Positions 15,603-33,313 of a DNA stretch of 64,000 bases are shown here, in pieces. How positions within the stretch are numbered: position 1 is the stretch's first letter; every line of letters begins with the position of its first letter. The notes below the pieces were generated by a model. It did no database searches. It was not told the DNA's origin and saw nothing but the letters and a program-made list of their open reading frames with translations. A program made the position numbers and the translations under genes. Source of the stretch: a virus; the IMG/VR virus record IMGVR_UViG_3300037337_000170, positions 62,001 through 126,000 of that record. The stretch is one strand, 5' to 3'.

Positions 15603-17222
15603 ATGGCGTCTTTTTCAGATCTTTTTGGTTTTAGCTTTAAAACCAACAATGAAAAACAAATTCCATCTGTTGTAGCACCAGCTAAAAACGATGGCGCGCT
15701 TGTTCTTGATAATAGTGCAGTAACTGGTGGGTGGACCGGTACGGCATACGATATTGATGGTGTAGTTAAGACTGAAAACGAGCAGATTAGACGATATAGG
15801 GATATTGCAGGTCAACCAGAAGTTGATTCTGCAATATCTGATATTGTTAACGAATGTGTAGTAACTGATCAGGATGATCATCCTGTTAAACTATTTTTAG
15901 ATAATTTAAAAGTAAGTGATGCACTAAAAAAGAAATTCAATGATTGTTTTATTGAAATCTTAAACAAACTTGACTTCAATTTGGAAGGTCATGATATTAT
16001 TAGACAGTGGTATGTAGATGGGCGTATCTACTACCATATTCTCTTTGTCAATAATGATATTTCTAAGGGAATCGCAGAGCTTAGATTAATCGATCCTTTA
16101 AAGATTAAAAAGATCAAAAATATTAAGCGTACAAAAAATAATCGTGGTATAGATATTGTTGATTCTATTGAGGAATACTATATCTATAATGACAAGGGTG
16201 TTACAGAAAATAATATTCAGGGAGTTAAGTTAACTGCCGATTCTGTTGTGATGATTCATTCTGGTTCTATTGATTCTATAAGTGGTAGTGTAATTGGATT
16301 TCTACAGAAGGTTATTAAACCAGCTAACCAACTTCGAATGATCGAAGATGCAGTGGTTATCTATACGATGACACGGGCGCCAGATCGCCGTGTATTTTAT
16401 ATTGATGTAGGTAATCTTCCTAAAGTTAAAGCAGAACAATATGTTACAGACATTATGAATAAGTTTAAAAACAAACTTATCTATAATGCTGCCACGGGCG
16501 AAATTGCAGATTCAAAACGTAATCTATCAATGACTGAGGATTTTTGGCTTGCGCGTAGGGACTCTAAGTCCACTGAAATTACTACGTTACAGGGAAGTCA
16601 ATCTTTAATCCAGTCAGACTTTATCGACTACTTTCAGAATAAATTATATCAATCGCTTAATGTTCCGATTGGTCGCATGAAGCCAGAAACCGGCTTTACA
16701 TTAGGTCGATCATCCGAAGTTACAAGAGATGAACTAAAGTTTAGTAAGTTTGTTGGAAGGCTAAGAATTCGATTCTCTGGTCTTTTCAGTGATCTAATGA
16801 AAATTCAACTCGTATCAAAAGGCCTAATTCGACTCGATGAGTGGGATGATATAAGAGCCAAGATACGATTTGACTTTATTAAGGATAATCACTTTACCGA
16901 GTTAAAGAATGCAGAAATCATTACCAATAGAATGACCACGCTTCAAATGGTTGATCCATTTTTAGGTAAATATGTATCAAAGAAGTGGGTACAGAAGAAT
17001 GTTCTAATGCTTGATGACGAAGAAATTGTCGAGATGGAAAACCAGATTAAAGAAGATGGGCCGATACCTGGCACAGAAGAAATGCCGGCTATTGAACCAC
17101 CCGCTGGCGGTGAAGAAGATCCTGCACAAGATCAAGAAATGGATCAAAGCCAAGAAGCCCACGATCAAAAGATTCGGCAATCCGAAGAATTACACCAACA
17201 GAAACTGAAGGATAAAAAATGA
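15603..17222 (+). CDS. 20: portal protein gp20
   Basis: 539 residues; T4 gp20 is 524. Forms the dodecameric portal through which DNA is packaged. Recognisable family segments include EVDSAISDIVNE, RVFYIDVGNLPKVKAEQY, FWLARRDSKSTEITTLQG and LNVPIGRMKPETGFTLGRSSEVTRDELKF (given here in parts). The C-terminal ~55 residues are acidic and Gln-rich (EEDPAQDQEMDQSQEAHDQK), probably a coiled extension. Stop and next start overlap (ATGA). Confidence 0.92.
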   Translation: MASFSDLFGFSFKTNNEKQIPSVVAPAKNDGALVLDNSAVTGGWTGTAYDIDGVVKTENEQIRRYRDIAGQPEVDSAISDIVNECVVTDQDDHPVKLFLDNLKVSDALKKKFNDCFIEILNKLDFNLEGHDIIRQWYVDGRIYYHILFVNNDISKGIAELRLIDPLKIKKIKNIKRTKNNRGIDIVDSIEEYYIYNDKGVTENNIQGVKLTADSVVMIHSGSIDSISGSVIGFLQKVIKPANQLRMIEDAVVIYTMTRAPDRRVFYIDVGNLPKVKAEQYVTDIMNKFKNKLIYNAATGEIADSKRNLSMTEDFWLARRDSKSTEITTLQGSQSLIQSDFIDYFQNKLYQSLNVPIGRMKPETGFTLGRSSEVTRDELKFSKFVGRLRIRFSGLFSDLMKIQLVSKGLIRLDEWDDIRAKIRFDFIKDNHFTELKNAEIITNRMTTLQMVDPFLGKYVSKKWVQKNVLMLDDEEIVEMENQIKEDGPIPGTEEMPAIEPPAGGEEDPAQDQEMDQSQEAHDQKIRQSEELHQQKLKDKK

Positions 17223-17380
17223 CCACCCAAGACCTAATTGATGCTATCGAAGCAGGTAAGACCCGTAATATGGAATCTACATTCGAAGCTATTATGCAAG
17301 AGAAAATGGAAACTGCTATTGACTTGCGCCGAATGGAGATTAGCCAATCAATGTTCACCTCTGATAACGCAGATAAATAA
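17219..17380 (+). CDS. 67: prohead core protein, gp67-like
   Basis: 53 residues (MTTQDLIDAIEAGKTRNMESTFEAIM...), overlapping the portal stop by four bases. In T4 the small core gene 67 sits in this place, between 20 and 21. The pattern DLI-x-A-I-x-x-GK-x-x-x-ME-x-x-F-x-x-IM-x-EK-x-x-x-A-I-D-x-x-R is typical of these short, helical core proteins. It should be part of the prohead scaffold and a substrate of the gp21 protease. Confidence 0.75.
   Translation: MTTQDLIDAIEAGKTRNMESTFEAIMQEKMETAIDLRRMEISQSMFTSDNADK
17372..17379 (+). promoter_or_regulatory. possible late promoter GATAAATA
   Basis: One-mismatch version of TATAAATA, overlapping the stop of the gp67-like gene and 38 bases before the next ATG. 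Weaker evidence than the perfect copies. Confidence 0.4.
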
Positions 17381-18277: not shown

Positions 18278-18928
18278 ATGATCTTACTAAAAGAATTCTC
18301 AGAGCCATCTAATGTGAATTATCTGACCGAAGCAGACACATCCGGCATTAAGCATATGTACATCGAAGGTTGTTTTGCTGAGGCAGTAACCAAAAACAGA
18401 AACGGTCGAATCTATCCAAAGAATATTTTGGAATCGGCCGTAGGGACTTATGTTGAAAACTATGTTTCTAAAAATAGAGCAATTTCAGAATTAAGTCACC
18501 CAGAAAATCGCCCAATGCCGAGTCCTGCATTGGCTAGTCATCTTGTTACCGAACTTAAAATGGTCGGTAACAAGGCGATGGGAAAGGCCAGAATTCTAAA
18601 AACTCCCCAAGGTCAAATCATTGAGGGTTTGATTAATGGCTCTGTTGCATTAGGTGTATCTACTCGCGGCCTAGGGTCTGTACAAGAATCTAACGGCACT
18701 ACATATGTTAAGGATGATCTGGTCCTTTATGCAATCGACTGCGTGCTGGATCCCAGCGGACTAAGTTGTTTCGTTGATGCGATTAATGAATCCCAAGAGT
18801 GGGTTGTTACAGATGATGGTCGGGTACTCGAGAAAACAAAGAGTATTATTAATACAACTCCATATATGAATGAATCACAGAAACTTAAATTATTCGGTGA
18901 TTTTATGCTAGAGATTGTATCACGATAA
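18278..18928 (+). CDS. 21: prohead protease gp21
   Basis: 216 residues; T4 gp21 is 212. Serine protease that matures the prohead by cutting scaffold, capsid and internal proteins after L/I-x-E. The catalytic His lies in AISELSHPENRPMPS and the catalytic Ser in LGVSTRGLGSV, both conserved in the family. The N-terminus has an LTEA site at about residues 16-19 that could be an autocleavage point. Flanked by core proteins and gp22 as in T4. Confidence 0.9.
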   Translation: MILLKEFSEPSNVNYLTEADTSGIKHMYIEGCFAEAVTKNRNGRIYPKNILESAVGTYVENYVSKNRAISELSHPENRPMPSPALASHLVTELKMVGNKAMGKARILKTPQGQIIEGLINGSVALGVSTRGLGSVQESNGTTYVKDDLVLYAIDCVLDPSGLSCFVDAINESQEWVVTDDGRVLEKTKSIINTTPYMNESQKLKLFGDFMLEIVSR

Positions 18929-18959: not shown

Positions 18960-18967
18960 TATAAATA
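18960..18967 (+). promoter_or_regulatory. T4-type late promoter TATAAATA
   Basis: Perfect late -10 element 27 bases before the scaffold gene gp22, with AGGAATAA as ribosome-binding site. Confidence 0.8.
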
Positions 18968-18993
18968 AACTTAACCAATTAGGAATAACCTAT

Positions 18994-20376
18994 ATGAAAA
19001 CCGTTGAAGACAAACTAAATGAACTCGCCCAATTGGCTGAAGAACTAAAACTTCAAACAGAGGCACATCCAGAAATTGAGGGCGATGAGGATGAAGACAT
19101 GGACACCAACGAAATGTCTGCAACTGAAAAAATGAAGCTTAAGGCACAAATGAAGAGCCTAAGTCCTGCTGAACATAAAAAGATGATGGAAGGCAAAAAA
19201 TCATCAATGTATGAAATGGCTATGTCAAAAATGAAATCTAAAAAAATGATGGATGAAGTTTGTGACGAAGACATGGATGATATGGGCAAAATGAAAATGA
19301 AGCCTATGAAAGAAATGGATAACATGTCCATGAAGAATAAAAAATCAATGAAGGAAATTCATTGTGATGATGACATGGATGACATGGATGATATGGGCAA
19401 AATGAAAATGAAGCCTATGAAAGAAATGGATAACATGTCCATGAAGAATAAAAAATCAATGAAGGAAATTCATTGTGATGATGACATGGATGAAATGCCC
19501 ATGAAGGAAATGAAAAAGAAGTCTATGCAAGAAATGAAGGCTAAGCCTGATTTTCTGGACCTAGATAAGGACGGCGATAAAGAAGAAGATATGACCAAAG
19601 CCGCTAAGGATAAAAAGATGAAGGGCATGAAAGAATCTGTGGATCTAGGTGGTCTATTTGAAGGCCAGGACCTATCAGAAGAATTTAAAACAACTGCAGC
19701 AGAATTATTTGAATCTGCTGTTACTGTACGTGTAAATCAAGAGCTGGATGAGGCTATTGATGACCTACAGGAAAAATTTGATCAGTATGTCAATGAACAG
19801 ACAACTGAATTGAAAGAAAGTCTAGTCGACAAAATTGATGGATATCTTGACTTTATGGTCGAGCAGTGGATGGATAAGAATGAACTAGCAATTAACCGCG
19901 GAATCAAGACAGAAATTCTCGAAAGTTTCGTCTCCGGCATGAAGAATGTATTCGAGAGCCATTATATTGATGTACCAGATGAAAAGTATGATCTCGTTGA
20001 AGCATCCCGCGCCGAAGTAACAGAACTCGAAGCCCGTCTAGATGAAGAGGTTGCAAAATCTGTTTCCCTAACCAAAACTCTTAAAGAGATTAGCCGCCAG
20101 GTTATGATCGATGAGGCTGTTGAAGGTATGGCCGAAACTGATGCTGAGAAGTTTCGCCAATTGGCAGAAGAAATGACCTATACCGATACTGGTTTTGAAA
20201 AGAAGCTTGCTGTTATCAAAGAGAGTTATTTCTCTGCCAGCAAGACCCGTCATTCAAAGCAGTTGACCGAAGAGTTCATGACCGACGAACCAATCGAAGA
20301 AACTTTAAATGAATCATCAACTATTGATCCAGTAATGGCTCTCTATTTGACCGCTCTCGAACGTAGTAACTATTAA
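18994..20376 (+). CDS. 22: prohead scaffold core gp22, with Met/Lys-rich insertion
   Basis: 460 residues; T4 gp22 is 269. Main scaffold protein around which the capsid forms and which is then digested. The C-terminal ~250 residues (FKTTAAELFESAVTVRVNQEL, LDFMVEQWMDKNELAINRGIKTEILESFVSGMKNVFESHYIDVP in parts) match marine T4-like scaffolds. The N-terminal ~200 residues carry an unusual Met/Lys/Asp-rich zone with a perfect 37-residue tandem duplication (DMDDMGKMKMKPMKEMDNMS...). The Met-rich zone has no T4 counterpart. Confidence 0.85.
   Translation: MKTVEDKLNELAQLAEELKLQTEAHPEIEGDEDEDMDTNEMSATEKMKLKAQMKSLSPAEHKKMMEGKKSSMYEMAMSKMKSKKMMDEVCDEDMDDMGKMKMKPMKEMDNMSMKNKKSMKEIHCDDDMDDMDDMGKMKMKPMKEMDNMSMKNKKSMKEIHCDDDMDEMPMKEMKKKSMQEMKAKPDFLDLDKDGDKEEDMTKAAKDKKMKGMKESVDLGGLFEGQDLSEEFKTTAAELFESAVTVRVNQELDEAIDDLQEKFDQYVNEQTTELKESLVDKIDGYLDFMVEQWMDKNELAINRGIKTEILESFVSGMKNVFESHYIDVPDEKYDLVEASRAEVTELEARLDEEVAKSVSLTKTLKEISRQVMIDEAVEGMAETDAEKFRQLAEEMTYTDTGFEKKLAVIKESYFSASKTRHSKQLTEEFMTDEPIEETLNESSTIDPVMALYLTALERSNY
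19270..19380 (+). repeat. 111-bp tandem repeat in gp22, copy 1
   Basis: Identical to 19381-19491; 37 codons, in frame, immediately adjacent. Encodes the acidic Met/Lys-rich stretch of the scaffold. Confidence 0.9.
19381..19491 (+). repeat. 111-bp tandem repeat in gp22, copy 2
   Basis: Second copy. The exact identity means the duplication is recent or kept uniform by recombination. Confidence 0.9.
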
Positions 20377-20424: not shown

Positions 20425-21687
20425 ATGTCAACAAACCAACAACTGTTAAAGAAATGGGCTCCGATTCTGGAATCTACTTCAATGCCAGCAATCGCTGATA
20501 ACCAGCGTAAAATGGACATCGCTGTCCTATTAGAAAACCAAGAACGTGCGCAACGTGAAGAGCGTGCAGTACTATTCGAAGATGCTCCAGGCAACTCAGC
20601 CGGCGCCATGCCAGATACCGGCGGTGTTGCTAAGTTTGATCCAGTTCTAATTAGCCTGGTTCGCCGTGCTATGCCAGCAATGATCGCCTACGACATGTGT
20701 GGTGTTCAACCAATGACCCAGCCAACTGGTCTTATCTTCGCAATGAAGTCAAAGTACTCCAGCCAGGGCGGAACTGAAGCCCTATTCAACGAAGCCGATA
20801 CCGACTTCTCTGGTAAGGGTACTCATGCAGGCGACGGTTCTGCTGCAGGTTCAACCACCGGCACCGGTATGTCAACTGCTGAAGCAGAAACTCTAGGCTC
20901 ACTAAACGGCACCCCAGGTGGTACGTTCAACGAAATGGCCTTCTCTATCGAGAAGACTTCAGTGGTTGCTCAGTCTCGTGCCCTAAAAGCAGAATACAGT
21001 GTTGAGCTTGCTCAAGACTTGAAGGCTGTTCACGGTCTAGATGCTGAAGCCGAACTAAGCAACATTCTTTCACAAGAAATTATCAACGAAATTAACCGTG
21101 AAGTTATTCGTACGGTATATAGTTCTGCACGAATTGGTGCACAGGTTGGTACCGCAGTGGCTGGTGCATTCGACTTAGATGTTGATTCTAACGGTCGTTG
21201 GTCAGTTGAAAAATTCAAAGGCCTATTGTTCCAAATCGAACGTGAAGCCAATGCAATTTACCAACAAACTCGTCGTGGCAAGGGTAACTTCATTGTCTGT
21301 TCTTCAGACGTGGCTTCTGCCCTAGCGATGGCTGGTGTGCTTGATTACGCTCCTGCGCTATCAACCAACCTAAATGTAGATGAAGCATCTTCAACCTTTG
21401 CTGGCGTGCTTAACGGTCGCTACAAAGTGTATGTTGATCCATTCGCTGCAAACCAGACTGCTGAACAGTTTCTAATGGTAGGTTACAAGGGCACCAGCCG
21501 CTTTGATGCTGGCGCCTTCTATTGCCCATACGTACCTCTCCAACTCTACCGTGCTACGGACCCGCTTACGTTCCAACCAAAACTAGCATTCCGGACTCGA
21601 TATGGGTTCGTTGCAAACCCATTCACCTCGCTAGCTGCTAATACCAATATTTACTTCCGTAAAATTCGTATTCTCAACTTAATGTGA
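20425..21687 (+). CDS. 23: major capsid protein gp23
   Basis: 420 residues; T4 gp23 is 521. Conserved segments include KFDPVLISLVRRAMPAMIAYDMCGVQPM, TGLIFAMKSKY, EMAFSIEKTSVVAQSRALKAEYSVELAQDLKAVHGLDAE (in parts) and the C-terminal FQPKLAFRTRYGFVANPF. The N-terminal ~52 residues should be removed by gp21; LFE (residues 50-52) just before DAPGNSAG is a good L-x-E cleavage site. The codons are biased to C-ending and GC-richer forms than its neighbours, as is common in very highly expressed capsid genes. Confidence 0.95.
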   Translation: MSTNQQLLKKWAPILESTSMPAIADNQRKMDIAVLLENQERAQREERAVLFEDAPGNSAGAMPDTGGVAKFDPVLISLVRRAMPAMIAYDMCGVQPMTQPTGLIFAMKSKYSSQGGTEALFNEADTDFSGKGTHAGDGSAAGSTTGTGMSTAEAETLGSLNGTPGGTFNEMAFSIEKTSVVAQSRALKAEYSVELAQDLKAVHGLDAEAELSNILSQEIINEINREVIRTVYSSARIGAQVGTAVAGAFDLDVDSNGRWSVEKFKGLLFQIEREANAIYQQTRRGKGNFIVCSSDVASALAMAGVLDYAPALSTNLNVDEASSTFAGVLNGRYKVYVDPFAANQTAEQFLMVGYKGTSRFDAGAFYCPYVPLQLYRATDPLTFQPKLAFRTRYGFVANPFTSLAANTNIYFRKIRILNLM

Positions 21688-21733
21688 TTGTATGGTATAG
21701 AAATATACCGATCAGTATACAAAGATGATACTC

Positions 21734-21759
21734 AAAAGGGACCGCAAGGTCCCTTTTTT
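21734..21759. terminator. Rho-independent terminator between gp23 and the minus-strand endonuclease
   Basis: AAAAGGGACC, a GCAA tetraloop, then GGTCCCTTTTTT. The flanking A and T runs make it usable in both directions, which fits the convergent arrangement of gp23 and the endonuclease. Confidence 0.9.
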
Positions 21760-21770
21760 ATGCCTAGAAT

Positions 21771-23066
21771 TTATTTCAGTAGAAATACCTTGTGGCCACA
21801 ATCCCAAAACTTCCTATATTTTGCTGCGAACATAGATTCATCCTCGGTTCCATCTATAAATTTCGAACCTAACAGAGTTTTCAATTTAGACTTTTGTGTC
21901 TGATAACGGGTTAGGCATTTACCACCGTTTGTCCAGAAATAACCTGGTTCGGTTGTTCTAATGTGCTCGAAGCCGGCCAAAGAGTATACCTTACCGGTGC
22001 CATATCTTTTATCACAATAACTCAGAATAGACCCAACATAAGTTGATCGAAAGTGAGATAAAAGCTTCTGAAAGCCACCAATAACATTATAGCCTGTTTC
22101 GGATGCAAATCTAATAAGCTCCCAATCTGCTTCCACAGTAAATCGCGGCTTCTTAAATGATACAACCTGCATAAGTTGGCCTTCGAATAATAGCCCTAGA
22201 TTGACTTTTGCTACTGCATTGCCAGAAATATGATTTTTATCCATGAACTCTTTTGTTTGTTTGGCTGTAAGTTCTTGCACAATACATTTTCTAGCATAGA
22301 GTTTATTACCAAGACCAAGCCTGGAGTTAATCATAGACATAACAAGTTCTTGCTTTTCTGTAATTTCCTTATCAGTAAAATGCATTAACAGGATACCACT
22401 TTTTTCTACACTATCACTTTTATGTAGATGTTTGTGTTTAATTTCTCTACTAATCGCCTTGCTACTAGCCGAGTGCCAATAGAGCCCATTTATTTCTATG
22501 GCGAGATTGTTGTTTGGAAAATAAATATCGAGGTGTTTTGGTTTTATTACTGTTTTATCATTTAACAGCATAGCCCCGGAAAAAACCTTTTTGAGTTCAT
22601 TGACCAAAGTTATTTCTACAAAGCTTCTCTGAAAATCATCATTACGTTCGATATTATGCCCATCAACAAATGCTAGAATCGTCCCGTAGTGAACATCAAG
22701 TTCTTTACCTAGTTCTTGTGATGATCTACCCTTTGTTTTATATTCCTCAAATACCCAAGTCTTATCCGATAGTTTTTTGAGTACTTCTTCCGAAAGTTTA
22801 GATTTTTTCCAAAGATGTTTTAGATCGGGTCTTTGAGAATTGAATCTATAACCGGTTTTAGCCAATAAGGTCTCTTCCCGTTTTTTCTGTGATGATTTTT
22901 CATTTCTATTTGCTATGGAGTCCTTCATAATAAATGCTAGGTCCTTATTCTTACACTTGTTCGAGCAGTAGTTGGACATAGTAACAGTACCACCATTAAT
23001 ATTAACCAAACATGGATCTCCGCACATTTTACATTCGCTATGTGGTTGATCTGTAAGAATCATCAT
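21771..23066 (-). CDS. Vsr-like (EDxHD-type) homing endonuclease
   Basis: 431 residues. An N-terminal CKMCGDPC...CSNKCKNK zinc-finger-like unit comes first. Residues about 110-140 (YKTKGRSSQELGKELDVHYGTILAFVD in parts) look like a DNA-binding helix-turn-helix. The catalytic part is Vsr-like (KHLDIYFPNNNLAIEINGLYWHS), followed by a domain with MDKNHISGNAVAKVNLGL and YCDKRYGTGKVY common in phage homing endonucleases. It is convergent to the capsid gene and separated by a bidirectional terminator. A minus-strand promoter of the TTTATT/TATAAT type lies upstream. Free-standing endonuclease genes beside gp23 are typical for selfish elements that target a neighbouring conserved gene. Confidence 0.8.
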   Translation of the reverse strand: MMILTDQPHSECKMCGDPCLVNINGGTVTMSNYCSNKCKNKDLAFIMKDSIANRNEKSSQKKREETLLAKTGYRFNSQRPDLKHLWKKSKLSEEVLKKLSDKTWVFEEYKTKGRSSQELGKELDVHYGTILAFVDGHNIERNDDFQRSFVEITLVNELKKVFSGAMLLNDKTVIKPKHLDIYFPNNNLAIEINGLYWHSASSKAISREIKHKHLHKSDSVEKSGILLMHFTDKEITEKQELVMSMINSRLGLGNKLYARKCIVQELTAKQTKEFMDKNHISGNAVAKVNLGLLFEGQLMQVVSFKKPRFTVEADWELIRFASETGYNVIGGFQKLLSHFRSTYVGSILSYCDKRYGTGKVYSLAGFEHIRTTEPGYFWTNGGKCLTRYQTQKSKLKTLLGSKFIDGTEDESMFAAKYRKFWDCGHKVFLLK

Positions 23067-23313: not shown

Positions 23314-23321
23314 TATAAATA
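23314..23321 (+). promoter_or_regulatory. T4-type late promoter TATAAATA
   Basis: Perfect late -10 element 26 bases before the ATG at 23347. It indicates late expression of the 2H phosphoesterase, which fits packaging into the head. Confidence 0.75.
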
Positions 23322-23346: not shown

Positions 23347-23877
23347 ATGCTATCATTTAGAGAATATCTAATGGAATCAGTTAAAGGCAATTATGTATCT
23401 ATTGATGTCGATAGACCCTTAATTATCCCTAGTCTAGCAGAAAAATTTCCGACTGCAAAAATCTGTATCGATGAGCAACATGCTACCCTAATGTATTCGG
23501 AAACCACAGATATTGCGGATGAGACAATTAAAGCCTTTCTATCCAAATATAGCAAACCATTTAAGATTAACCTGGGTACTGTAGAGGCATTTGATTCTCC
23601 TATGGATGATGGCTCTAAGTCTGAATTGTGTGCTATAGTAGTTAAGATTGAATCTAACCTTTTATCTGAGATTCACTCTGGACTAAAAAAATTAGGTCTT
23701 AAGCATTCATATGCAGACTTTCAGCCGCATATCTCGGTTTTATATAAACTTCCCATGGCAGATAAAAATGCTGCATTATCTTGTGTTAGAGACAACATTG
23801 AAAAGGGTGCAGAACTTATGTTAAAAGGTTATAACATAGATGCAATCGACAAATCTTGGGCCTCTAAAATAAAGTAA
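23347..23877 (+). CDS. 2H phosphoesterase with capsid-targeting-like N-terminus
   Basis: 176 residues from ATG 23347, chosen because it follows the late promoter and gives the MLSFREYLME start. The two H-x-T/S motifs of the 2H superfamily are H45-A-T47 (EQHATLMY) and H128-I-S130 (FQPHISVLY). 2H enzymes act on cyclic or 2'-5' phosphodiesters; T4 Acb1 (anti-CBASS) is a phage member, others work in RNA repair. The first ten residues resemble the T4 internal-protein targeting peptide, with an L-x-E site after residue 10, so the enzyme may be packaged and injected. Substrate is inference; weak similarity means Acb1 identity is not claimed. Confidence 0.75.
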   Translation: MLSFREYLMESVKGNYVSIDVDRPLIIPSLAEKFPTAKICIDEQHATLMYSETTDIADETIKAFLSKYSKPFKINLGTVEAFDSPMDDGSKSELCAIVVKIESNLLSEIHSGLKKLGLKHSYADFQPHISVLYKLPMADKNAALSCVRDNIEKGAELMLKGYNIDAIDKSWASKIK

Positions 23878-23880
23878 CTT

Positions 23881-24423
23881 ATGTCATTTTTATCAGTACC
23901 CACTCCCGCCAAAGTAAATCCTCTATTCGGCCCAGGTAATTATTCATTCAACTTAGTCAAGTTTCCAGAAGTAAGTTTCATGCTTCAATCGGTTGAATTA
24001 CCTAGTATTCAGCTTGGTACCGCCATGATGTCGACAAGTGTACACGATGTTCCATTACCAGGTGAAACTCTTTCCTTTTCAGATTTATCATTTACATTTA
24101 TTGTTGACGAAGATATGTCTAACTACATGGCTATTCATGAATGGCTAATGGGCCTAGGCTACCCCGAATCTCATGAAATGTATAAGGAACTTTTACGTAA
24201 TTCTAAAAACACCGCTAGTCTTTCTGAGCTATCAAAAGGCTATACAGATGGTGTTATAACCATAATGGGTAATTATAATGTTCCAGTTGTACAAGCCGTT
24301 TTTGTCGATGCATTCCCTATTAGTATTGGTGGCATGAACTTTAATAGCAACAACTCTGACTCGGAGCCAATTATCGCCACAGCAACTTTTGCATATGCTC
24401 ATTATACCCTAAATAAAGTCTAA
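23881..24423 (+). CDS. tail-tube-fold structural protein (gp54/gp3-like)
   Basis: 180 residues. The segment SFMLQSVELPSIQLGTAMMSTSVHDVPLPGETLSFSDLSFTFIVDEDMSNYMAIHEWLMGLG (given in the protein, residues about 24-86) has the tube-like pattern of gp19 relatives: a LPSI/LPGI turn, an H-x-PG-x-x-L-x-F strand and a W-L-x-GLG helix. The C-terminus (FVDAFPISIGGMNFNSNNSDSEPIIATATFAYAHY, in parts) fits too. Such proteins form the tube initiator or tail terminator. Position before uvsY is like that of tail-completion genes in marine T4-like phages. The exact T4 equivalent is uncertain. Confidence 0.65.
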   Translation: MSFLSVPTPAKVNPLFGPGNYSFNLVKFPEVSFMLQSVELPSIQLGTAMMSTSVHDVPLPGETLSFSDLSFTFIVDEDMSNYMAIHEWLMGLGYPESHEMYKELLRNSKNTASLSELSKGYTDGVITIMGNYNVPVVQAVFVDAFPISIGGMNFNSNNSDSEPIIATATFAYAHYTLNKV

Positions 24424-24441
24424 CAAGACTACCTTTATATT

Positions 24442-24876
24442 ATGACACTTAGTGAATTGAAATTGCAATGGGCCCGCGATTGTATTATTGATGAAAATGA
24501 TCTTGGTGGCGCCGCCATAAAGACAAGTAATTTACATTCATTTTACATCAATGAAAATATTAACATTAAATTACAATTAGTAAAACTTCAAATGGAAGTG
24601 GCCACACTTCAGGTTGCTCGTGGCAGATACTTTCGTGGCGAGATGCCAAGTGCTGAGTTAAAAGAACGTGAATGGGAACAATGGCACTACAAAACCCTTA
24701 GAGCGGATATTGGTGATTTAATCTTAGCATCGCCTGATGTACAAATTCTATTGGGGCGTCAGGAATATCTAAAAATCATTATCGGCTTTTTAGATTCAGT
24801 TCTAGGTGAGATCAAAGCCCGCTCATTTAATATTAGAAATGCTATAGACTGGGCCAAGTTCAGAGCAGGCAATTGA
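24442..24876 (+). CDS. uvsY: recombination mediator UvsY
   Basis: 144 residues; T4 UvsY is 137. Loads UvsX onto single-stranded DNA covered by gp32. The pattern matches: SNLHSFYINENINIKLQLVKLQMEV at the N-terminal helices (in parts), YFRGEMPSAELKEREW, then LLGRQEYLKIIIGFLDSVLGEIKARSF and a C-terminal AIDWAKFRAGN like T4 AFEAGK. Followed by UvsW, with which it acts in recombination-dependent replication. The stop is followed at once by an orphan minus-strand promoter. Confidence 0.85.
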   Translation: MTLSELKLQWARDCIIDENDLGGAAIKTSNLHSFYINENINIKLQLVKLQMEVATLQVARGRYFRGEMPSAELKEREWEQWHYKTLRADIGDLILASPDVQILLGRQEYLKIIIGFLDSVLGEIKARSFNIRNAIDWAKFRAGN

Positions 24877-24878
24877 AC

Positions 24879-24918
24879 CACTTACCGAACAACTAGAATA
24901 CATAGTTTATTATATCCA
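24879..24918 (-). repeat. 40-bp promoter-leader repeat, copy B
   Basis: Three substitutions from 6647-6686. It begins two bases after the uvsY stop codon and contains the minus-strand TATAAT. Confidence 0.85.
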
Positions 24919-24941
24919 GAAAAGTTCGAGCCCGAAATAAA
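24909..24941 (-). promoter_or_regulatory. orphan minus-strand promoter TTTATT-N21-TATAAT, copy B
   Basis: TTTATT (24941-24936) then 21 bases then TATAAT (24914-24909) on the minus strand, pointing antisense into uvsY. T4 has a transcription-primed origin (oriF) associated with uvsY, which makes the position notable. Confidence 0.7.
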
Positions 24942-25008
24942 CACGACCTATTCCATGTAACACTTTGTACAAGTCATTTGTCAGGAATTCTTGGAATACG
25001 AGAAACCG

Positions 25009-25016
25009 CATAAATA
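25009..25016 (+). promoter_or_regulatory. possible late promoter CATAAATA
   Basis: One-mismatch late -10 element 68 bases before UvsW. T4 uvsW is a late gene, which supports the assignment. Confidence 0.45.
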
Positions 25017-25059
25017 ATGTAATAGAATCAACAACTTAGCCGCGCGTTTTCCGAAAGCT

Positions 25060-25073
25060 GTGGGGATCCCCAC
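25060..25073 (+). promoter_or_regulatory. 14-bp perfect palindrome in the uvsW leader
   Basis: GTGGGGATCCCCAC occupies the place where a Shine-Dalgarno would be, 11 bases before the uvsW ATG, and no other ribosome-binding site is visible. It could be an operator hairpin; the surrounding leader (25039-25073) is also more GC-rich than average. Confidence 0.5.
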
Positions 25074-25084
25074 CAAATTATATT

Positions 25085-26617
25085 ATGTCAAAAATCACAG
25101 TTACTTCTTATAATGAAACACATGTCCGTGTAAACTGTGATGACTACGGGGTGGAAATGGAACTTCAGGAATATTTTACCTTTAGTGTCCCTGGTGCTAA
25201 ATTTACACCCAAGTTTAAATCTGGTCAATGGGATGGAAACATTAAGCTACTCAACACCCGTAACAAATTATTGTACACTGGGTTAATTTCACTAGTACAT
25301 AAATTTGCTAGATCCAATGGTTATGAGATTGATATTGCCAGAGAGTTAAATCCCACGATCAAGATTACCAGAGCCGAAGTATCGGATTACATGCACGGGC
25401 TTAATCTAACCGGTCGGGGTGTTCCAATTCAACTTAGAGATTACCAGATTGATGCTGTTTATAAGGCTCTTTCAAATAAGAGGTTAATTCTAGTAAGTGC
25501 TACTGGCTCTGGCAAGTCATTGATTTTATATTCGATCATTCGCTATTGCTTAGACAAAGAACAGTCTATTGTTCTTATTGTACCGACTGTAAGTTTGGTG
25601 AATCAGATGGTTAGCGACTTTAAGGATTACAGTACGGCTAATGGTTTTGATGTAGATAAACATATCCACGGCTTATATTCTGGCAAGGATCGTATTTTTA
25701 ATAAGCCTGTTACAATTTCAACTTGGCAGACATTGGCTAGTATGCACAAGAGTGATTCAAAGAACTATTTGGCACTAACTGCAAATACCGATGTATTGCT
25801 AGCCGACGAAGCGCACACATTAAAAGCGGCTGTTGTTTCTGCGACCATTGAAGGGTTCGTCAATACAAGCCATAGAATTGGAACCACCGGTACCCTACAC
25901 GATGCACTTTGTAATAAGCTAGTGTTAATAGGTCTTTTGGGTCCGGCTCACGAGATTATATCTGCTTCCGAATTGATTGCAGCTGGTCAGGCTGTTCCAA
26001 TCGACATTAAAGTTATTATTCTCAAACATCCTTCAGAGTTCTGTAAGATGTTAAAGTCAATGGATTACAAAGAAGAACTTCAACAGATTATCTCTAATCC
26101 TGCACGTAATGCCTTTATTGCCAACCTCGCAAAATCATTATCTGGTAATACATTAATTTTATACCGCTTTGTTGCTACCCATGGGCAAATTTTATATGAT
26201 CTCATAAAAGAAAATGTAGGTGACACAAGAGCAGTTTATTTTATTCACGGTGGTGTAGAAGTAGAGGAACGGGATAGAATTCGTCTCATTTTGGAAAATG
26301 ATAAGAGTGCCATTGTTGTAGCCACTGAGTCCCTAATGTCGACAGGAATTAATATCCCTAGTCTAGAAAATTTAATCTTTGCCTGCCCTGGTAAATCTGC
26401 AATTCGTATTCGTCAATCAATTGGAAGAACACTTCGATTAAAAGAAGGTAAGACTCATGCTACCATATATGACATTGCCGACGATTATCGAGCCTCACCA
26501 AAAGCTAGAAATAACATAACTCTTAATCATCTTAATGATAGACTAGCCATTTATGTAAAAGAGGATTTCAAATACTCAATTCGTAGACTAGAGTTAAAAT
26601 ATGATTATCTTGGCTGA
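25085..26617 (+). CDS. uvsW: SF2 DNA/RNA helicase UvsW
   Basis: 510 residues; T4 UvsW is 503. Unwinds R-loops and branch-migrates DNA, switching T4 from origin- to recombination-primed replication. N-terminal substrate-binding part with FKSGQWDGNIKLLN. Walker A is LVSATGSGKSL, the DEAH-like box LLADEAHTL, motif III GTTGTLHD and motif VI RQSIGRTLRL. It follows uvsY in the same orientation. Confidence 0.92.
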   Translation: MSKITVTSYNETHVRVNCDDYGVEMELQEYFTFSVPGAKFTPKFKSGQWDGNIKLLNTRNKLLYTGLISLVHKFARSNGYEIDIARELNPTIKITRAEVSDYMHGLNLTGRGVPIQLRDYQIDAVYKALSNKRLILVSATGSGKSLILYSIIRYCLDKEQSIVLIVPTVSLVNQMVSDFKDYSTANGFDVDKHIHGLYSGKDRIFNKPVTISTWQTLASMHKSDSKNYLALTANTDVLLADEAHTLKAAVVSATIEGFVNTSHRIGTTGTLHDALCNKLVLIGLLGPAHEIISASELIAAGQAVPIDIKVIILKHPSEFCKMLKSMDYKEELQQIISNPARNAFIANLAKSLSGNTLILYRFVATHGQILYDLIKENVGDTRAVYFIHGGVEVEERDRIRLILENDKSAIVVATESLMSTGINIPSLENLIFACPGKSAIRIRQSIGRTLRLKEGKTHATIYDIADDYRASPKARNNITLNHLNDRLAIYVKEDFKYSIRRLELKYDYLG

Positions 26618-26623
26618 TAAATA
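26616..26623 (+). promoter_or_regulatory. possible late promoter GATAAATA
   Basis: One-mismatch late -10 element overlapping the end of uvsW, 24 bases before the next ATG. Confidence 0.4.
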
Positions 26624-26647
26624 CTAAAATTATAAGTTAAGATTATC

Positions 26648-27874
26648 ATGCAAAGTTTTAAAAGTTGGCTAAATGAGGCGTCAGAGGTAAATTCTCACAT
26701 GACGCATCTCTCGGATTTGCTATTCATTGAAGGTATTGCCGGAACAAAAAAGGCAGTTGATTACCTTCGTGATATGCGAAAGATATTTTCCAAGTCATCA
26801 AGGAATGTGTATAGTGTAAAATGGGATGGCGCGCCGAGCGTAATTCTAGGGATTGATCCAGCAGACGGTGTCTTTTTTGTGGCCAAAAAAGGTATCTTCA
26901 ATAAGAATCCCAAAGTCTATAAGACACAGGCTGACATTGATTCTGAGTTATCGGGCGAACTTAGAGATAAATTTAGTACTCTACTAAAATATGGTGTCGA
27001 ATTAGGTATCACTTCTGGAATCTATCAGGGTGATTTAATGTATACATCTGATGATTTAAAAACTGAAACTATTGATGGCGAGGCAATGGTCAAGTTTCAT
27101 CCAAACACTATTGCATATGCGGTGCCTAAGACCTCGAATTTAGCTAAAAAGATTCTAAAATCTAAACTGGGTATAGTCTTTCACACCACATACACAGGTG
27201 ATAGTTTTGCCAACCTTAAAGCTAACTTTGGCAAAAATATTGTAACAAAGTTCAAAACTACTCCTAATGTATGGGCTATTGACGCCACATTAACTGATGA
27301 CACGGCTGAATTTACTCTGAGCGCTGGTGAATATCTTACGGTTGAGTTGCTATTAAAAGAGATTGGTCAACAGTTTCAGAAGTTAGATTCCAAACTCGTT
27401 AATAATATTTCTACCCACCCAGAATTGTCTAGTTTAGTTTTGATTTATATTAACTCTCTTGTTAGAAAAAATAATAAGTCAATTACCCCAATGCAAATGG
27501 CAACTGGATTCCATGATTTCATTCATGCTAGATATCAAAAAGAAATTGATTCAAAGAAGACGGAAAAAAGTAAATCTGCCCTTGAGACAAAGCGTATTGA
27601 GGCTTTAAAATATTTTGAGGAATATTCTACAGTTAAAATTGCTACTATGTTTGAATTAACCCAATCAATAGAGGCGCTAAAGGATCTGATGCTTGATAAG
27701 ATGAAAGTTATTAACGGTTTGAGTCATTATCTTAAAACCAAGGATGGATATAAGGTAACCAACCCAGAAGGTTTTGTTGCTATTAATGGGGATAAAGCTA
27801 TCAAACTTGTGGATAGATTTACTTTCTCGTTGGCCAACTTTTCACCAGAAATCCAGAAAGGGTGGCAAAAATGA
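26648..27874 (+). CDS. KxDG nucleotidyltransferase/ligase-like protein with capsid-targeting-like N-terminus
   Basis: 408 residues, similar in outline to phage DUF6267-type proteins. A ligase-like motif I is visible at K58-W-D-G61 (SVKWDGAPSV). AKKG (residues 79-82), YQGDLMY (about 126-132) and GEAMVKF (about 144-150) stand where motifs Ia-IV of covalent nucleotidyltransferases would be, so an RNA/DNA ligase or capping-type AMP/GMP transfer is a fair guess. The N-terminus MQSFKSWLNE-A has an L-x-E protease site after residue 10, as in T4 packaged internal proteins. Overlaps the next gene (ATGA). Catalytic activity is inference. Confidence 0.65.
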   Translation: MQSFKSWLNEASEVNSHMTHLSDLLFIEGIAGTKKAVDYLRDMRKIFSKSSRNVYSVKWDGAPSVILGIDPADGVFFVAKKGIFNKNPKVYKTQADIDSELSGELRDKFSTLLKYGVELGITSGIYQGDLMYTSDDLKTETIDGEAMVKFHPNTIAYAVPKTSNLAKKILKSKLGIVFHTTYTGDSFANLKANFGKNIVTKFKTTPNVWAIDATLTDDTAEFTLSAGEYLTVELLLKEIGQQFQKLDSKLVNNISTHPELSSLVLIYINSLVRKNNKSITPMQMATGFHDFIHARYQKEIDSKKTEKSKSALETKRIEALKYFEEYSTVKIATMFELTQSIEALKDLMLDKMKVINGLSHYLKTKDGYKVTNPEGFVAINGDKAIKLVDRFTFSLANFSPEIQKGWQK

Positions 27875-28461
27875 TCTCATTTAAGGAATATCTCAATGAA
27901 GCAACATCTAAATGTGTGGTTGCTGCCTTCGGGCGGTTTCAGCCTCCTACTACCGGGCATGGCTTATTAGTTAAAAAAGTAGTTGATACAGGTAAAGCTA
28001 ATAAATGTGACCACGTAATTTATCTTAGTAAAACTGAAGATCCTAAAAAGAATCCTCTTAATATTACGGATAAAGTTAAATGGGCCCGTGAGATGTTTCC
28101 TGGTGCCAATATTACTGGTGCAACTGCAGAGATTCGCACTTTTATTGAAATGATAAAACATTTAAATCAGAAATACAAAGTTCTTTATCTGGTCGCTGGC
28201 AGCGATAGGGTCCCTGAATACCAGGCCCTACTAGACAAATATAATGGTACTGAATTTAAGTATGATAAAATTGAAGTTGTATCCGCGGGCGCGCGCGACC
28301 CGGATGCTGATGGTGCTTCTGGAATGAGCGCCACTAAAATGCGAAATGCAGCTAAGGACAATGATTTAGTTTCATTCAAAAAAGGTCTACCGACACATAT
28401 GAATACACGAGCCCAGGCTATGATGGATAATATTCGTTCTGGTATGAAGATAAAGGATTAA
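27871..28461 (+). CDS. HxGH-type adenylyl/cytidylyltransferase with capsid-targeting-like N-terminus
   Basis: 196 residues. Start ATG 27871 is preferred to the in-frame GTG at 27862 because it gives MISFKEYLNE-A, matching the leaders at 23347 and 26648, and overlaps the upstream stop as ATGA. The nucleotidyltransferase fold is shown by VVAAFGRFQPPTTGHGLLV (residues about 18-36) and the C-terminal GMSATKMRNA, the usual ISxTxxR-like motif. NMN adenylyltransferases belong to this superfamily, but the substrate cannot be read from the motifs. Packaging is suggested by the leader. Confidence 0.7.
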   Translation: MISFKEYLNEATSKCVVAAFGRFQPPTTGHGLLVKKVVDTGKANKCDHVIYLSKTEDPKKNPLNITDKVKWAREMFPGANITGATAEIRTFIEMIKHLNQKYKVLYLVAGSDRVPEYQALLDKYNGTEFKYDKIEVVSAGARDPDADGASGMSATKMRNAAKDNDLVSFKKGLPTHMNTRAQAMMDNIRSGMKIKD

Positions 28462-29768: not shown

Positions 29769-31298
29769 ATGTTATCATTTAAAGATCTTACAGATAGAAA
29801 AACATTGCCGCTACGTGAGCAATTCATTCGTGGGGATGTATTGAATATTGGTCAACTAGTGGAGGATCATAATGGAAAATATCAAATTCTTGATCGGGGT
29901 ACAAACTATCTTATATGTGCTAATGATTCCGGCCGCATAGTAAAAAAGTTTCTACTAGAGGTAAAATCTATTTCTGAGATCGCACCGATAGATACACTTC
30001 AATGCTTTAAGGGTTATCAAAGTAATATTAAGGATCCGATTGCAGAAGAATGTTTTATATCCTTAATTGATAAATACAACAGTGGTGATATAGTCGACTC
30101 CATCGCAATTCTAAAAGCCCTCAAGGCTTATAACGAAGACAATGTAGAGTCACTTAAGACAAGTCTAACACGTCTTAATGAACTGGATAATTACCTTAAT
30201 CTAAAGGAAGCTATGTCTGATAATATTAAAAGTAATGATAAACTAAAGGTAGCTTCAGTTATCGCCGATACATTGGGAGTTGAGTCTAGTGGTTCTAGCC
30301 CTGAGATGATGGTCAACAATGCCCTCAGGAATGCCCGCAAGAACTCAATGATGCTTCGCGGTGAGAGTATTAAAATTATTATGCGGATGCTTGAACTGGC
30401 AAAGTCGGTTGGTATTAAGTATGACGAGAAAATTATCAAGGTTGTTGAGGAATCCGAGGAATCTTTGGATGAACTCTCAACCGAAAAACTCGCGGCCTAC
30501 AAAAGGAAGGCATCCTTGGCCGCCTCCGAAGCGGACAAAAAAGGTGACTTCAAAACCGGCAACAAACGCTTTTCTGGTATCATGAAGGCCACCCGCAAGC
30601 AGTTTGACAATGACCTAAAAGAAGGCAGTGACATGCGGATGCTTGAACTGGCAAAGTCGGTTGGTATTAAGTATGACGAGAAACTTATTAAGCTCCCGGA
30701 AGTTAATGAGGAAATCAAGGGTTGGAAAAATGCTGGTTCTGACATTGCAAGGATGCGTAAGGCCCGGGGCGATGAAGCTAAAACAGTACATTTACATAGA
30801 TTGAAAAAAGACGGTTCTGAGTCTGGTATGCATGACGCACGAAAATCATTTTCCTCCCAAGAAGATGCTCAGAGGCATCATGATAATAGTCGTAAGTTGA
30901 ATCCCAAAAGCGATATCCGGCACAATCTTTATATTGATGGTAAGCAGGTTAGTACGCTTAAAGAATCCAAAGTCATTGTTACCAACGAGACCGGTAAAAA
31001 AATGAATGGCAAGGTCCAAGCGGTTCATGGTCCGGTGCAGCAGATTAAATATAGAAATGGTAAAACAGGTTATTATCATCAACACAATGTCTCCAAATTA
31101 GAAGAGGAAGACTGTCAAGATGAACCAACCAAAAGAACATATTCCGAACTAATGTCGGCTATCAAACATTCGGCTGGAACTGGTGAAGCAACGGTTGATG
31201 ATAGTGAACTTCCTGCTCGACTAAAAAATGGTCACACTATGTCACCTACTAGTGAAACCAACCGTAAACAATTAATTAAACATCTTTTAGATCATTAA
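29769..31298 (+). CDS. modular internal virion protein candidate
   Basis: 509 residues starting MLSFKDLTDRK, similar to but not the same as the packaged-protein leaders; an LRE site occurs at residues 16-18. It is built from modules: a segment MRMLELAKSVGIKYDEK occurs twice (84 residues apart), between which lies DELSTEKLAAYKRKASLAAS...KRFSGIMKAT, a repeat type spread through internal head proteins of aquatic T4-like phages. Another module (HARKSFSSQEDAQRHHDNSRK) follows. Very rich in Lys and charged residues. Probably a head-interior protein cut by gp21; no enzyme motif seen. Confidence 0.55.
   Translation: MLSFKDLTDRKTLPLREQFIRGDVLNIGQLVEDHNGKYQILDRGTNYLICANDSGRIVKKFLLEVKSISEIAPIDTLQCFKGYQSNIKDPIAEECFISLIDKYNSGDIVDSIAILKALKAYNEDNVESLKTSLTRLNELDNYLNLKEAMSDNIKSNDKLKVASVIADTLGVESSGSSPEMMVNNALRNARKNSMMLRGESIKIIMRMLELAKSVGIKYDEKIIKVVEESEESLDELSTEKLAAYKRKASLAASEADKKGDFKTGNKRFSGIMKATRKQFDNDLKEGSDMRMLELAKSVGIKYDEKLIKLPEVNEEIKGWKNAGSDIARMRKARGDEAKTVHLHRLKKDGSESGMHDARKSFSSQEDAQRHHDNSRKLNPKSDIRHNLYIDGKQVSTLKESKVIVTNETGKKMNGKVQAVHGPVQQIKYRNGKTGYYHQHNVSKLEEEDCQDEPTKRTYSELMSAIKHSAGTGEATVDDSELPARLKNGHTMSPTSETNRKQLIKHLLDH
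30381..30431 (+). repeat. 51-bp direct repeat, copy 1
   Basis: Identical or nearly identical to 30633-30683; encodes MRMLELAKSVGIKYDEK. Offset 252 bases, exactly 84 codons. Confidence 0.85.
30633..30683 (+). repeat. 51-bp direct repeat, copy 2
   Basis: Second copy of the 17-residue module, in frame. A diverged relative (LQEMLKLAESVGVDVS) is in the protein at 39147. Confidence 0.85.
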
Positions 31299-31306
31299 GG
31301 AACAAC

Positions 31307-33313
31307 GTGAGTAAAGTAACAAATCTATTGGCCGACTTTCGCACCAATATTAAAAATATAGAGGGCTCCGCGGATTTAAAAGAAGCTAAAAAAACTATTG
31401 AAAAGCGATATAAGGATCTTGGTACTTGGGAAAAGCAGCTTAAGGAAATACATGGGCAAGATGTTAGTATTAAAGACCACCCAACTTATGCACTATCATA
31501 TATCGCTCGCAGCAATGGAAACTATGCAGGTTATTTTAAGATGATTAGCAAAATTGGTGAAATTGTTAAGCCAATGAAGGAATCCGATGAGTATCAATTC
31601 GAGTCAAAGAAACAATGGGCCGCGGCTATTATTAACGAGCATGGCCCACATGTTGAGTTCGTATATTCTGGTGGTTCTTATACTGCCAATAGCGGTTCAA
31701 AGTCAGTAGGCTCATTCAAGTATGATACTGGTGTAAATCAACTCAGTGGAACGGGTCATATTTCTGAATCAGTTCAACTAGACGAAGCTATTCGCTCCAA
31801 GGACTTCCCTCGCGCTACTGCATTAATCAAGAAGTACTTCACTGGTAAATTAGGTAAGGTATATTTCTTTCCAATGCCAGAGGTGTTTACTCCTAGCGGC
31901 GGTTCAAAAGGTGTGGGTATTAAATTCTTCGTAAATGGTAATCAGGCAGTTCGTATGAATTGGGCTGGCACCAATCTAGGTATCTCTAAAGGTTTGGTAT
32001 CAGTGGATTTTTGGGACGGTTCTAAGTCACCACAACCAACACCAAGCCATCATGTCAAATTTGAGTCGGGTAACGAATCCTTAATTAAGGTATTACCATT
32101 TGTCGTAGATTTTGTGCAGGGTAAAATTGATAAAACTGGTTCTAGCATCTTTGTCAATGAGGAAGTTAGTGCATACGATCTAACTATGGTAACTGATTTT
32201 ACTCAGCTTCATACTATCAATGAGGCTAATTATAGTTCTGGTGAACTACACAAGACTGTGTCAAATATTATAAATGCTTTGAGTCAGGGCATTTCGATTT
32301 CGGATATGACTAAAATGGGAGGGACAAAAAAATATGGCCCTCGGTTCCCAAAGGCTATTGAGGCTATCAAACGCAATCATGGCAATCTATTCACCAAACA
32401 GGGTCTTAAGCATATTATTGAGCCTAGTCAAGTAAAAAAGATTGACACCGCCGCAGTACTCGCCTATATTTCTGGTGGTGATGATGCCATTGCATTCACT
32501 GCCAGCGCTGGTTCAAAAGAAATGGTTGAAGTCGACGGTGCTTCTGAGCAAGATATTGAACGCATGACTTATGAGGAAAGTTTAGAAGCACTTCAATCCG
32601 GAGTTAAACTGTTGATGGCAAATGCGACCAATGGCTTATTCTTGGCTGGAAGAGGGGGAGTTGGAAAGACAGCAAATGTTGAAGATGTATTGGCTGCTGC
32701 TGGTAAATCAGATGGTCAGGGTTATTATAAGGTCGCGGGTTCTGCTTCACCCGCTGGTATGTATCGTATTTTGTTCGAACATAAGGATGAAATTATACTT
32801 TTTGATGACGCGGATAGTGCATTGGGTGACGTGGAAGGGCGTAATTTAATTAAAGCAGCAGCCGATACTTCTAAGAAACGTAAAATTTCTTGGTTAAAAG
32901 GTGGTGGCGCCTATGTTGACCCAGATGAATACGATCCAGACGCAGATGATGGTAAATTACCACGATCATTTATCTTTACTGGTAAAATTATCTTTATTAG
33001 TAACCTAGCCATTAACAAATTAGATCCCGATGGTAGTTTAAGGACCCGAGCATACTTGATTAATATAGATCCATCAAATATGGAGATGTATGAATTTATG
33101 ACAAAAATAGCAGGCAAGATCAAATTAGATGTTGATTATCCTCTATCATTATCTGATCGGCTTGAGGTAGTAGAACTTTTGAAAAGTAGAAAGGTTGCCG
33201 ATAAGACCGTTAACTTACGTCAATTAGTTCGTGGTCTAAATACCCGTGCTGGTATAGCCAGTCAAGGTGGCACCACGGCGGAGTGGACTCGTTTTGTTAA
33301 GATGTTCGCATAA
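31307..33313 (+). CDS. AAA-type ATPase fused to an internal-protein-like N-terminal part
   Basis: 668 residues from a GTG with AAGGA upstream. The N-terminal ~300 residues contain modules typical of internal head proteins (ESKKQWAAAIINEHGPHVEF, LDEAIRSKDFPRATALIKKYF) and many L-x-E sites. The C-terminal part is an ATPase: Walker A GRGGVGKT (about residues 449-456), Walker B IILFDDAD (about 496-503), then a sensor-like FISNLAINKLDPDGSLRTRAYLINI. The core is related to small AAA proteins of phages. Whether it is packaged, acts in head assembly or works in the cell cannot be decided here. Confidence 0.65.
   Translation: MSKVTNLLADFRTNIKNIEGSADLKEAKKTIEKRYKDLGTWEKQLKEIHGQDVSIKDHPTYALSYIARSNGNYAGYFKMISKIGEIVKPMKESDEYQFESKKQWAAAIINEHGPHVEFVYSGGSYTANSGSKSVGSFKYDTGVNQLSGTGHISESVQLDEAIRSKDFPRATALIKKYFTGKLGKVYFFPMPEVFTPSGGSKGVGIKFFVNGNQAVRMNWAGTNLGISKGLVSVDFWDGSKSPQPTPSHHVKFESGNESLIKVLPFVVDFVQGKIDKTGSSIFVNEEVSAYDLTMVTDFTQLHTINEANYSSGELHKTVSNIINALSQGISISDMTKMGGTKKYGPRFPKAIEAIKRNHGNLFTKQGLKHIIEPSQVKKIDTAAVLAYISGGDDAIAFTASAGSKEMVEVDGASEQDIERMTYEESLEALQSGVKLLMANATNGLFLAGRGGVGKTANVEDVLAAAGKSDGQGYYKVAGSASPAGMYRILFEHKDEIILFDDADSALGDVEGRNLIKAAADTSKKRKISWLKGGGAYVDPDEYDPDADDGKLPRSFIFTGKIIFISNLAINKLDPDGSLRTRAYLINIDPSNMEMYEFMTKIAGKIKLDVDYPLSLSDRLEVVELLKSRKVADKTVNLRQLVRGLNTRAGIASQGGTTAEWTRFVKMFA

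Follow-up and report, generated by a model that had tools for sequence, protein, structure and literature searches.

Evidence for a T4-type packaging label on three enzyme-like proteins, one of them Acb1-like, of a T4-like phage

Three genes of a T4-like phage that encode enzyme-like proteins begin with nearly the same ten residues, and the question raised by this locus is whether the shared peptide works, as in the internal proteins of T4, as an address that brings its cargo into the head and from there into the next host. The window, i.e. the whole stretch of 64,000 nucleotides (nt) analysed computationally here, comprises bases 62001-126000 of the 128,647-base IMG/VR virus record IMGVR_UViG_3300037337_000170. 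The order of its tail and head genes matches the T4 map, and according to the major capsid protein the nearest annotated phages are cyanophages, Methylophilales phage Melnitz, and pelagiphage HTVC008M. The three proteins and their N-terminal peptides (hereafter tags) are the following.

23347..23376, + strand: capsid-targeting-like tag MLSFREYLME, predicted gp21-type cleavage before Ser11; kept in 3 relatives
23347..23877, + strand: 2H phosphoesterase of the Acb1 family, which acts against the cyclic-oligonucleotide-based antiphage signalling system (CBASS), 176 aa; assigned by Pfam, PDB, Foldseek, and hhalign
26648..26677, + strand: capsid-targeting-like tag MQSFKSWLNE, predicted cleavage before Ala11; conserved in 51/51 clade sequences
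26648..27874, + strand: DUF6267 protein with invariant KxDG, possible covalent nucleotidyltransferase/ligase fold, 408 aa; Pfam 330.9 bits
27871..27900, + strand: capsid-targeting-like tag MISFKEYLNE, predicted cleavage before Ala11; L091 has MISFREYLNEA
27871..28461, + strand: TxGH nucleotidyltransferase (CTP_transf_like), 196 aa; Pfam match just above cut-off; adjoins DUF6267 in most relatives

Up to residue 11 the N-termini read MLSFREYLMES (2H), MQSFKSWLNEA (DUF6267), and MISFKEYLNEA (nucleotidyltransferase), with F4, Y/W7, L8, and E10 conserved. The original prediction, made from the letters of the DNA, had placed the starts at 23347, 26648, and 27871; ATG is found at all three, and the sites are supported because similarity to homologues sets in at this Met and the sequence upstream of it is different. 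A later DUF6267 start (26699), given by automatic gene calling, was rejected since the homologues favour 26648. The genome-wide search for tag-like starts that the prediction had proposed was run with a pattern derived from the T4 internal proteins and Alt, M..[hydrophobic]..[aromatic/hydrophobic][LIVMF].E. In the whole record 3 of 715 candidate starts match, and these are exactly the three named genes. At internal start-like codons the loose pattern matches 2 of 1885 and a tighter aromatic version none.

For T4 internal protein III (IPIII) the first ten residues suffice for packaging, and mutagenesis assigns positions 4 and 7 to targeting and positions 8 and 10 to processing (PMC9026906). The residues kept here occupy these four functional positions, which supports the capsid-targeting reading. 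The T4 comparators (AF158101) are MKTYQEFIAE-A for IPII and IPIII, MELITELFDE-D for Alt, and MKTFKEFTSTTTPVSTITE-A for IPI. The proposal of a T4-like capsid-targeting peptide is thus strongly supported by the sequence, according to the functional positions, the unrelated cargo, and the presence of an S77 protease among the head genes, which were identified by Pfam, PHROGs, and tblastn with the T4 map as comparison (a slash marks the cut).

17219..17380, + strand: gp67-like prohead core protein; phrog_1064 'prohead', E 3.2e-6, and T4 gene order
18278..18928, + strand: gp21-type prohead protease (Peptidase_S77), candidate tag-cleaving enzyme; Pfam 109.6 bits, phrog_207
18994..20376, + strand: gp22-type scaffold with 14 [LI]xE/[ASGDE] sites; T4_CASP 210.8 bits
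20425..21687, + strand: gp23-type major capsid protein, possible processing site VLFE/D after residue 52

The phage therefore encodes both the gp21-type protease and the gp22/gp67 core by which a T4-type capsid-targeting system is recognised. The 14 sites in the 460 residues of the scaffold correspond to 3.0 per 100 aa vs 0.33 in other proteins, a nine-fold density that is consistent with an LxE-cutting protease. The scaffold is, however, rich in Glu, and when this is considered the excess is smaller, with [LI] at P3 before 18 of 65 Glu in gp22 vs 74 of 355 elsewhere. Directly after gp23, where T4 has segD, a homing/HNH endonuclease gene lies on the opposite strand (window 21771-23066).

Two of the tagged genes are preceded by further sites of interest.

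23314..23321, + strand: TATAAATA, T4-type late-promoter-like site, 33 nt before the 2H start
26616..26623, + strand: GATAAATA, late-promoter-like site, 32 nt before the DUF6267 start

Both sequences, which we take to be the T4 late-promoter core, are covered by [TG]ATAAATA, found in the window 14 times on the + strand and 0 times on the - strand (model expectation 13.6 for both strands together). Such sites also precede several head and tail genes, with a spacing of 29 nt for gp20 and 34 nt for gp22. Late synthesis would suit proteins destined for the next infection; if an anti-CBASS enzyme appeared only at that stage, its help in the current infection would presumably come late.

That these enzymes carry a T4-type packaging label, and that one of them is Acb1-like, is well supported; their packaging, injection, and function are predictions. 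The explanation that we regard as clearly probable is that the ten-residue N-termini are T4-type capsid-targeting sequences, and that the enzymes are packaged, cleaved, and injected, the 2H protein being a pre-loaded Acb1. According to it, the three enzymes would be made late in infection from T4-type late promoters, the tag would dock them onto the gp22/gp67 prohead core, and the gp21-type protease would cut it off after Glu10. The cut enzymes would then stay in the head through DNA packaging and enter the next host with the DNA. There the 2H protein, as a pre-loaded Acb1, might degrade the cyclic di- and trinucleotides of CBASS from the first moment of infection, while the DUF6267 protein and the TxGH nucleotidyltransferase may jointly act on nucleotides or the ends of nucleic acids, either inside the head or upon entry.

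One competing explanation, which we consider unlikely, accepts targeting to the prohead and cleavage and lets the enzymes act within the head or take part in packaging the DNA, for instance on DNA ends, rather than against the defences of a host after their injection. It agrees with the late-promoter-like sites, with the link of T4 IPIII to head morphogenesis (PMC9026906), and with the position of the DUF6267 and nucleotidyltransferase genes among replication and head genes in cyanophages. The 2H protein, however, is Acb1-like and has no obvious head role, and each of the three T4 proteins IPI, IPII, and IPIII is injected and inhibits GmrSD restriction enzymes (PMC12373910).

As for the 2H protein itself, its assignment as a 2H phosphoesterase was right, and a narrower one, Acb1-like, is warranted. 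No Pfam family but Acb1 exceeds its cut-off (36.5 bits, cut-off 27), the FBB1 Acb1 (7t26) is the sole PDB sequence match (E 7.9e-6), and the structure model has 7t27 and 7t26 as its top fold matches in Foldseek. The hhalign alignment to T4 57B (E 9e-6) extends from the first catalytic His through the last residue. Acb1 residues known to be functional, i.e. H44/T46/H113/T115, Y12/W74/F107/W147, and E141 (PMC9117128), were mapped onto the protein. The catalytic tetrad corresponds to H45/T47/H128/S130, so that the paired HxT/HxT arrangement is found as H45-A-T47 and H128-I-S130, and the counterparts of the four stacking residues (Y16/F82/Y122/W171, with Y16 placed by hand on a G-x-Y motif) are all aromatic. 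Cleavage after E10 would leave all mapped residues intact. The suggestion that the protein acts on cyclic nucleotides of defence is well supported by this homology, and it is probably an anti-CBASS enzyme of Acb1 type.

A different function for the same protein, also unlikely in our estimation, would be that of a LigT-like RNA 2',3'-cyclic phosphodiesterase aiding the repair of cleaved RNA. The family 2_5_RNA_ligase2 scores 25.4 bits, just below its cut-off of 27, the tagged cargo of relatives includes polynucleotide kinase (PNK)-like kinases and HAD proteins, and a KxDG gene is the neighbour. Nevertheless, the LigT model TIGR02258 stays far below cut-off, the Pfam, PDB, and fold searches all favour Acb1, and both the aromatic counterparts and the C-terminal lid segment, which aligns through to the end, agree with the latter.

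The DUF6267 protein had been called KxDG ligase-like, and this description holds in part. K58/D60/G61 are invariant in 58 DUF6267 sequences, invariant EG and Lys residues near the C-terminus are reminiscent of ligase motifs IV and V, and the best PDB match in the fold search is, weakly, a DNA ligase (3rr5, prob 0.80, E 0.067). Sequence-profile similarity to ligases did not emerge, since hhalign gives no match to T4 Rnl2 or gp30 ligase (probability 0.10 and 0.15, respectively). The protein thus seems weakly ligase-like, and repair of RNA or DNA ends by it and the tagged cargo of relatives (PNK-like kinases, HAD phosphatases) is possible. Its neighbour, the nucleotidyltransferase, lies near DUF6267 in 62 window-like, 60 pelagiphage-like, and 78 cyanophage-like loci, which suggests that the two probably work together. 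The motif first read as HxGH in this enzyme is actually PTTGH, i.e. TxGH, presumably as in enzymes of the phosphopantetheine adenylyltransferase (PPAT) type, and the second motif is SATKMR. NadD/NadR models are far below cut-off (TIGR00482 22 vs 112 bits, TIGR01526 16.5 vs 341), and for both reasons the role against defences that deplete nicotinamide adenine dinucleotide (NAD) was dropped. PADLOC reports no match for the three tagged proteins. A separate HxGH nucleotidyltransferase of 326 residues, possibly NadM/NadR-like, starts MYKLGLVVGKFCPLHLGHKYV at 21127-22107 of G000 (L083 2127-3107).

The DUF6267 family also bears on a further explanation, which appears improbable, namely that the proteins share an amphipathic helix which serves some other purpose, for example to dock onto the machinery of replication or transcription, and which is not cleaved and gives no address to the head. 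Part of the conservation could indeed serve expression or docking, and pelagiphage-like DUF6267 proteins have a shortened leader that retains only the end LxE-D. The AlphaFold2 model of the protein (58 sequences) has a mean predicted local distance difference test (pLDDT) of 87, with residues 1-17 below 50, and the tag thus lies outside the predicted fold; together with the late-promoter-like sites, this gives further support to capsid targeting. The cyanophage DUF6267 starts MSKNTHLEH directly after the tag position and lacks exactly the tag segment, and the tag is absent in 80/80 P-HM2-like loci. On a 73-row DUF6267 tree the tag state changes 3 times vs a shuffled mean of 19.7, and all 51 rows of the window's clade have the full tag. 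Cultured relatives with a tagged DUF6267 include Stenotrophomonas phage DLP6 and Methylophilales phage Melnitz. What speaks against the helix is that the conserved positions match the T4 mutagenesis with both processing positions included, that LxE falls at residue 10 and is followed by A or S, and that a protease and an [LI]xE-rich scaffold are encoded.

In about 87 related IMG/VR loci the tag is found at 184 of 3228 ATG starts vs 9 of 7504 internal ATGs. The tag-bearing starts fall in about 35 sequence clusters; there is some redundancy among the loci, and the BLAST linkage behind the clusters joined some proteins through the tag or low-complexity sequence, so the number of truly unrelated tagged families is approximate. 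Among 85 distinct non-DUF6267 starts of the form M..F.....E, position 7 is aromatic or His in 87% and position 8 aliphatic in 85%, compared with 27% and 64% for internal matches (n=11). As a DNA pattern, the tag has 52 matches in 23 phage records vs 1 for the reversed pattern, with none in S-PM2 or HTVC008M, and a looser version recovers T4 IPII and IPIII and gives 3-7 sites in each of 13 Tevenvirinae-type records. That the three N-termini are alike by chance is, short as the pattern is, next to impossible, since about 0.2 loose matches are expected among some 200 called genes vs 3 seen, all in the tight form, and the recurrence in relatives refutes it.

A side result of the comparison concerns T4 gene 61.1 (L137:967-1131, T4 18966-19130, minus strand), whose 54-residue hypothetical product starts MKTFKEFIKE-D and, by its sequence, resembles an internal protein of T4 that has so far gone unrecognised. 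Tagged starts are found at similar genome positions in three related phages.

Several observations weigh against packaged, injected enzymes with a pre-loaded Acb1 among them. The 2H structure model is fair (pLDDT 74), Acb1 Thr115 is replaced by Ser130, and E141, the adenine contact, by D165 (Asn in one relative). Only four tagged Acb1 sequences are known, and one metagenome supplied three of them; when further 2H relatives were sought by single-protein and alignment scans, just three contigs turned up, too few for a deep alignment. A recognisable tag is present in only about one third of the neighbouring nucleotidyltransferases of close relatives, and in contig IMGVR_UViG_3300039159_000494 the tag of the relative's nucleotidyltransferase has E10 changed to A. 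Considering this fraction and the untagged partners in some phages (cyanophages), packaging does not seem essential to function. In L090 (6001-6588), a close relative of the nucleotidyltransferase with E10 changed to A and GRFQPP to ARMQPS is perhaps a decaying copy.

The same leader precedes otherwise unrelated proteins in the related loci, as is characteristic of internal proteins, and these include a Zeta-toxin/PNK-like kinase (L013), a HAD phosphatase-like protein (L017), a restriction-enzyme-like protein (L005), and an AAA protein (L001). A broader claim, to which we give about even chances, is that the tag serves environmental T4-like phages as a general cargo code, carried by dozens of unrelated enzymes with swapping of labels and providing anti-CBASS activity at time zero; it would cover the Acb1-type nuclease, PNK-like kinases, HAD phosphatases, and restriction-enzyme-like and AAA proteins. 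The window holds a homologue of the tagged AAA protein.

31307..33313, + strand: AAA-ATPase-like protein; internal QLDE/AIRS (residue 160) aligns with the tag/body junction LLQE/AIAN of the tagged L001 homologue

A second internal site of this protein, INE/ANYS, aligns with IIE/ARAS of the same homologue, and the protein could be a candidate for a longer propeptide and two processed parts. Elsewhere in the window, a protein without PHROG family (40273-41451) starts MTDISKTSFKDYIVVHE-S, possibly an offset variant of the tag, and the product of 29769-31298, which starts MLSFKDL and lacks E10, contains an internal repeat, MRMLELAKSVGIKYDEK, that is almost exact, along with several LxE sites.

The results suggest that viruses of this sort deliver finished counter-defence enzymes along with the DNA that they inject. 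Should the tag serve generally as an address label, the counter-defence proteins that uncultured T4-like phages inject become readable from their genomes, and the role of internal proteins in non-T-even phages, long open, becomes testable protein by protein; a pre-loaded Acb1, if true, changes the expected timing of anti-CBASS defence. No paper on a packaged or injected Acb1, or on the tag outside the T-evens, was found in the open-access literature, most subscription journals lying outside the search.

What is known of the proteins injected by T4 concerns mainly small inhibitors of type IV restriction. Since the internal proteins of T-even phages are known injected anti-restriction proteins (PMC12373910), the present case extends a known kind, and the T4 internal-protein system apparently reaches a broad set of aquatic T4-like phages and enzymes, including a pre-loaded anti-CBASS nuclease. 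Shared with T4 IPI, IPII, IPIII, and Alt are the ten-residue N-terminal peptide (19 residues in IPI) with aromatic positions 4 and 7, I/L at 8, E10, and A/S at 11, the otherwise unrelated cargo bodies, and the gp21, gp22, and gp67 genes. The differences are that position 4 is F here and Y in T4, that the cargo is mostly enzyme-like whereas that of T4 consists of small restriction inhibitors (Alt excepted), and that this phage stands outside the T-evens, its packaging of the enzymes being a prediction. The jumbo phages of the phiKZ/SPN3US type also have N-terminal propeptides on ejected proteins, removed by the prohead protease (PMC5694885), which differ in being long, mostly >100 residues, with the motif A-x-E or S-x-E.

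As for Acb1, the 2H protein shares with that of T4 and FBB1 (gp57B, PDB 7t26/7t27) the 2H fold, the HxT/HxS tetrad, the base-stacking aromatics, and the C-terminal lid segment. The T4 57B gene adjoins ipI (PMC9117128). A tag on T4-type Acb1s was considered and rejected: 57B starts MMEFKDF, but the N-terminus is unconserved and without LxE in about 30 relatives. In contrast to these, the protein of the window carries the capsid tag. Similarly, cyanophages have the same two families as T4-GC 71 (DUF6267) and GC 190 (cytidyltransferase), usually adjacent, and while the cyanophage DUF6267 is without the tag, that of the window is tagged.

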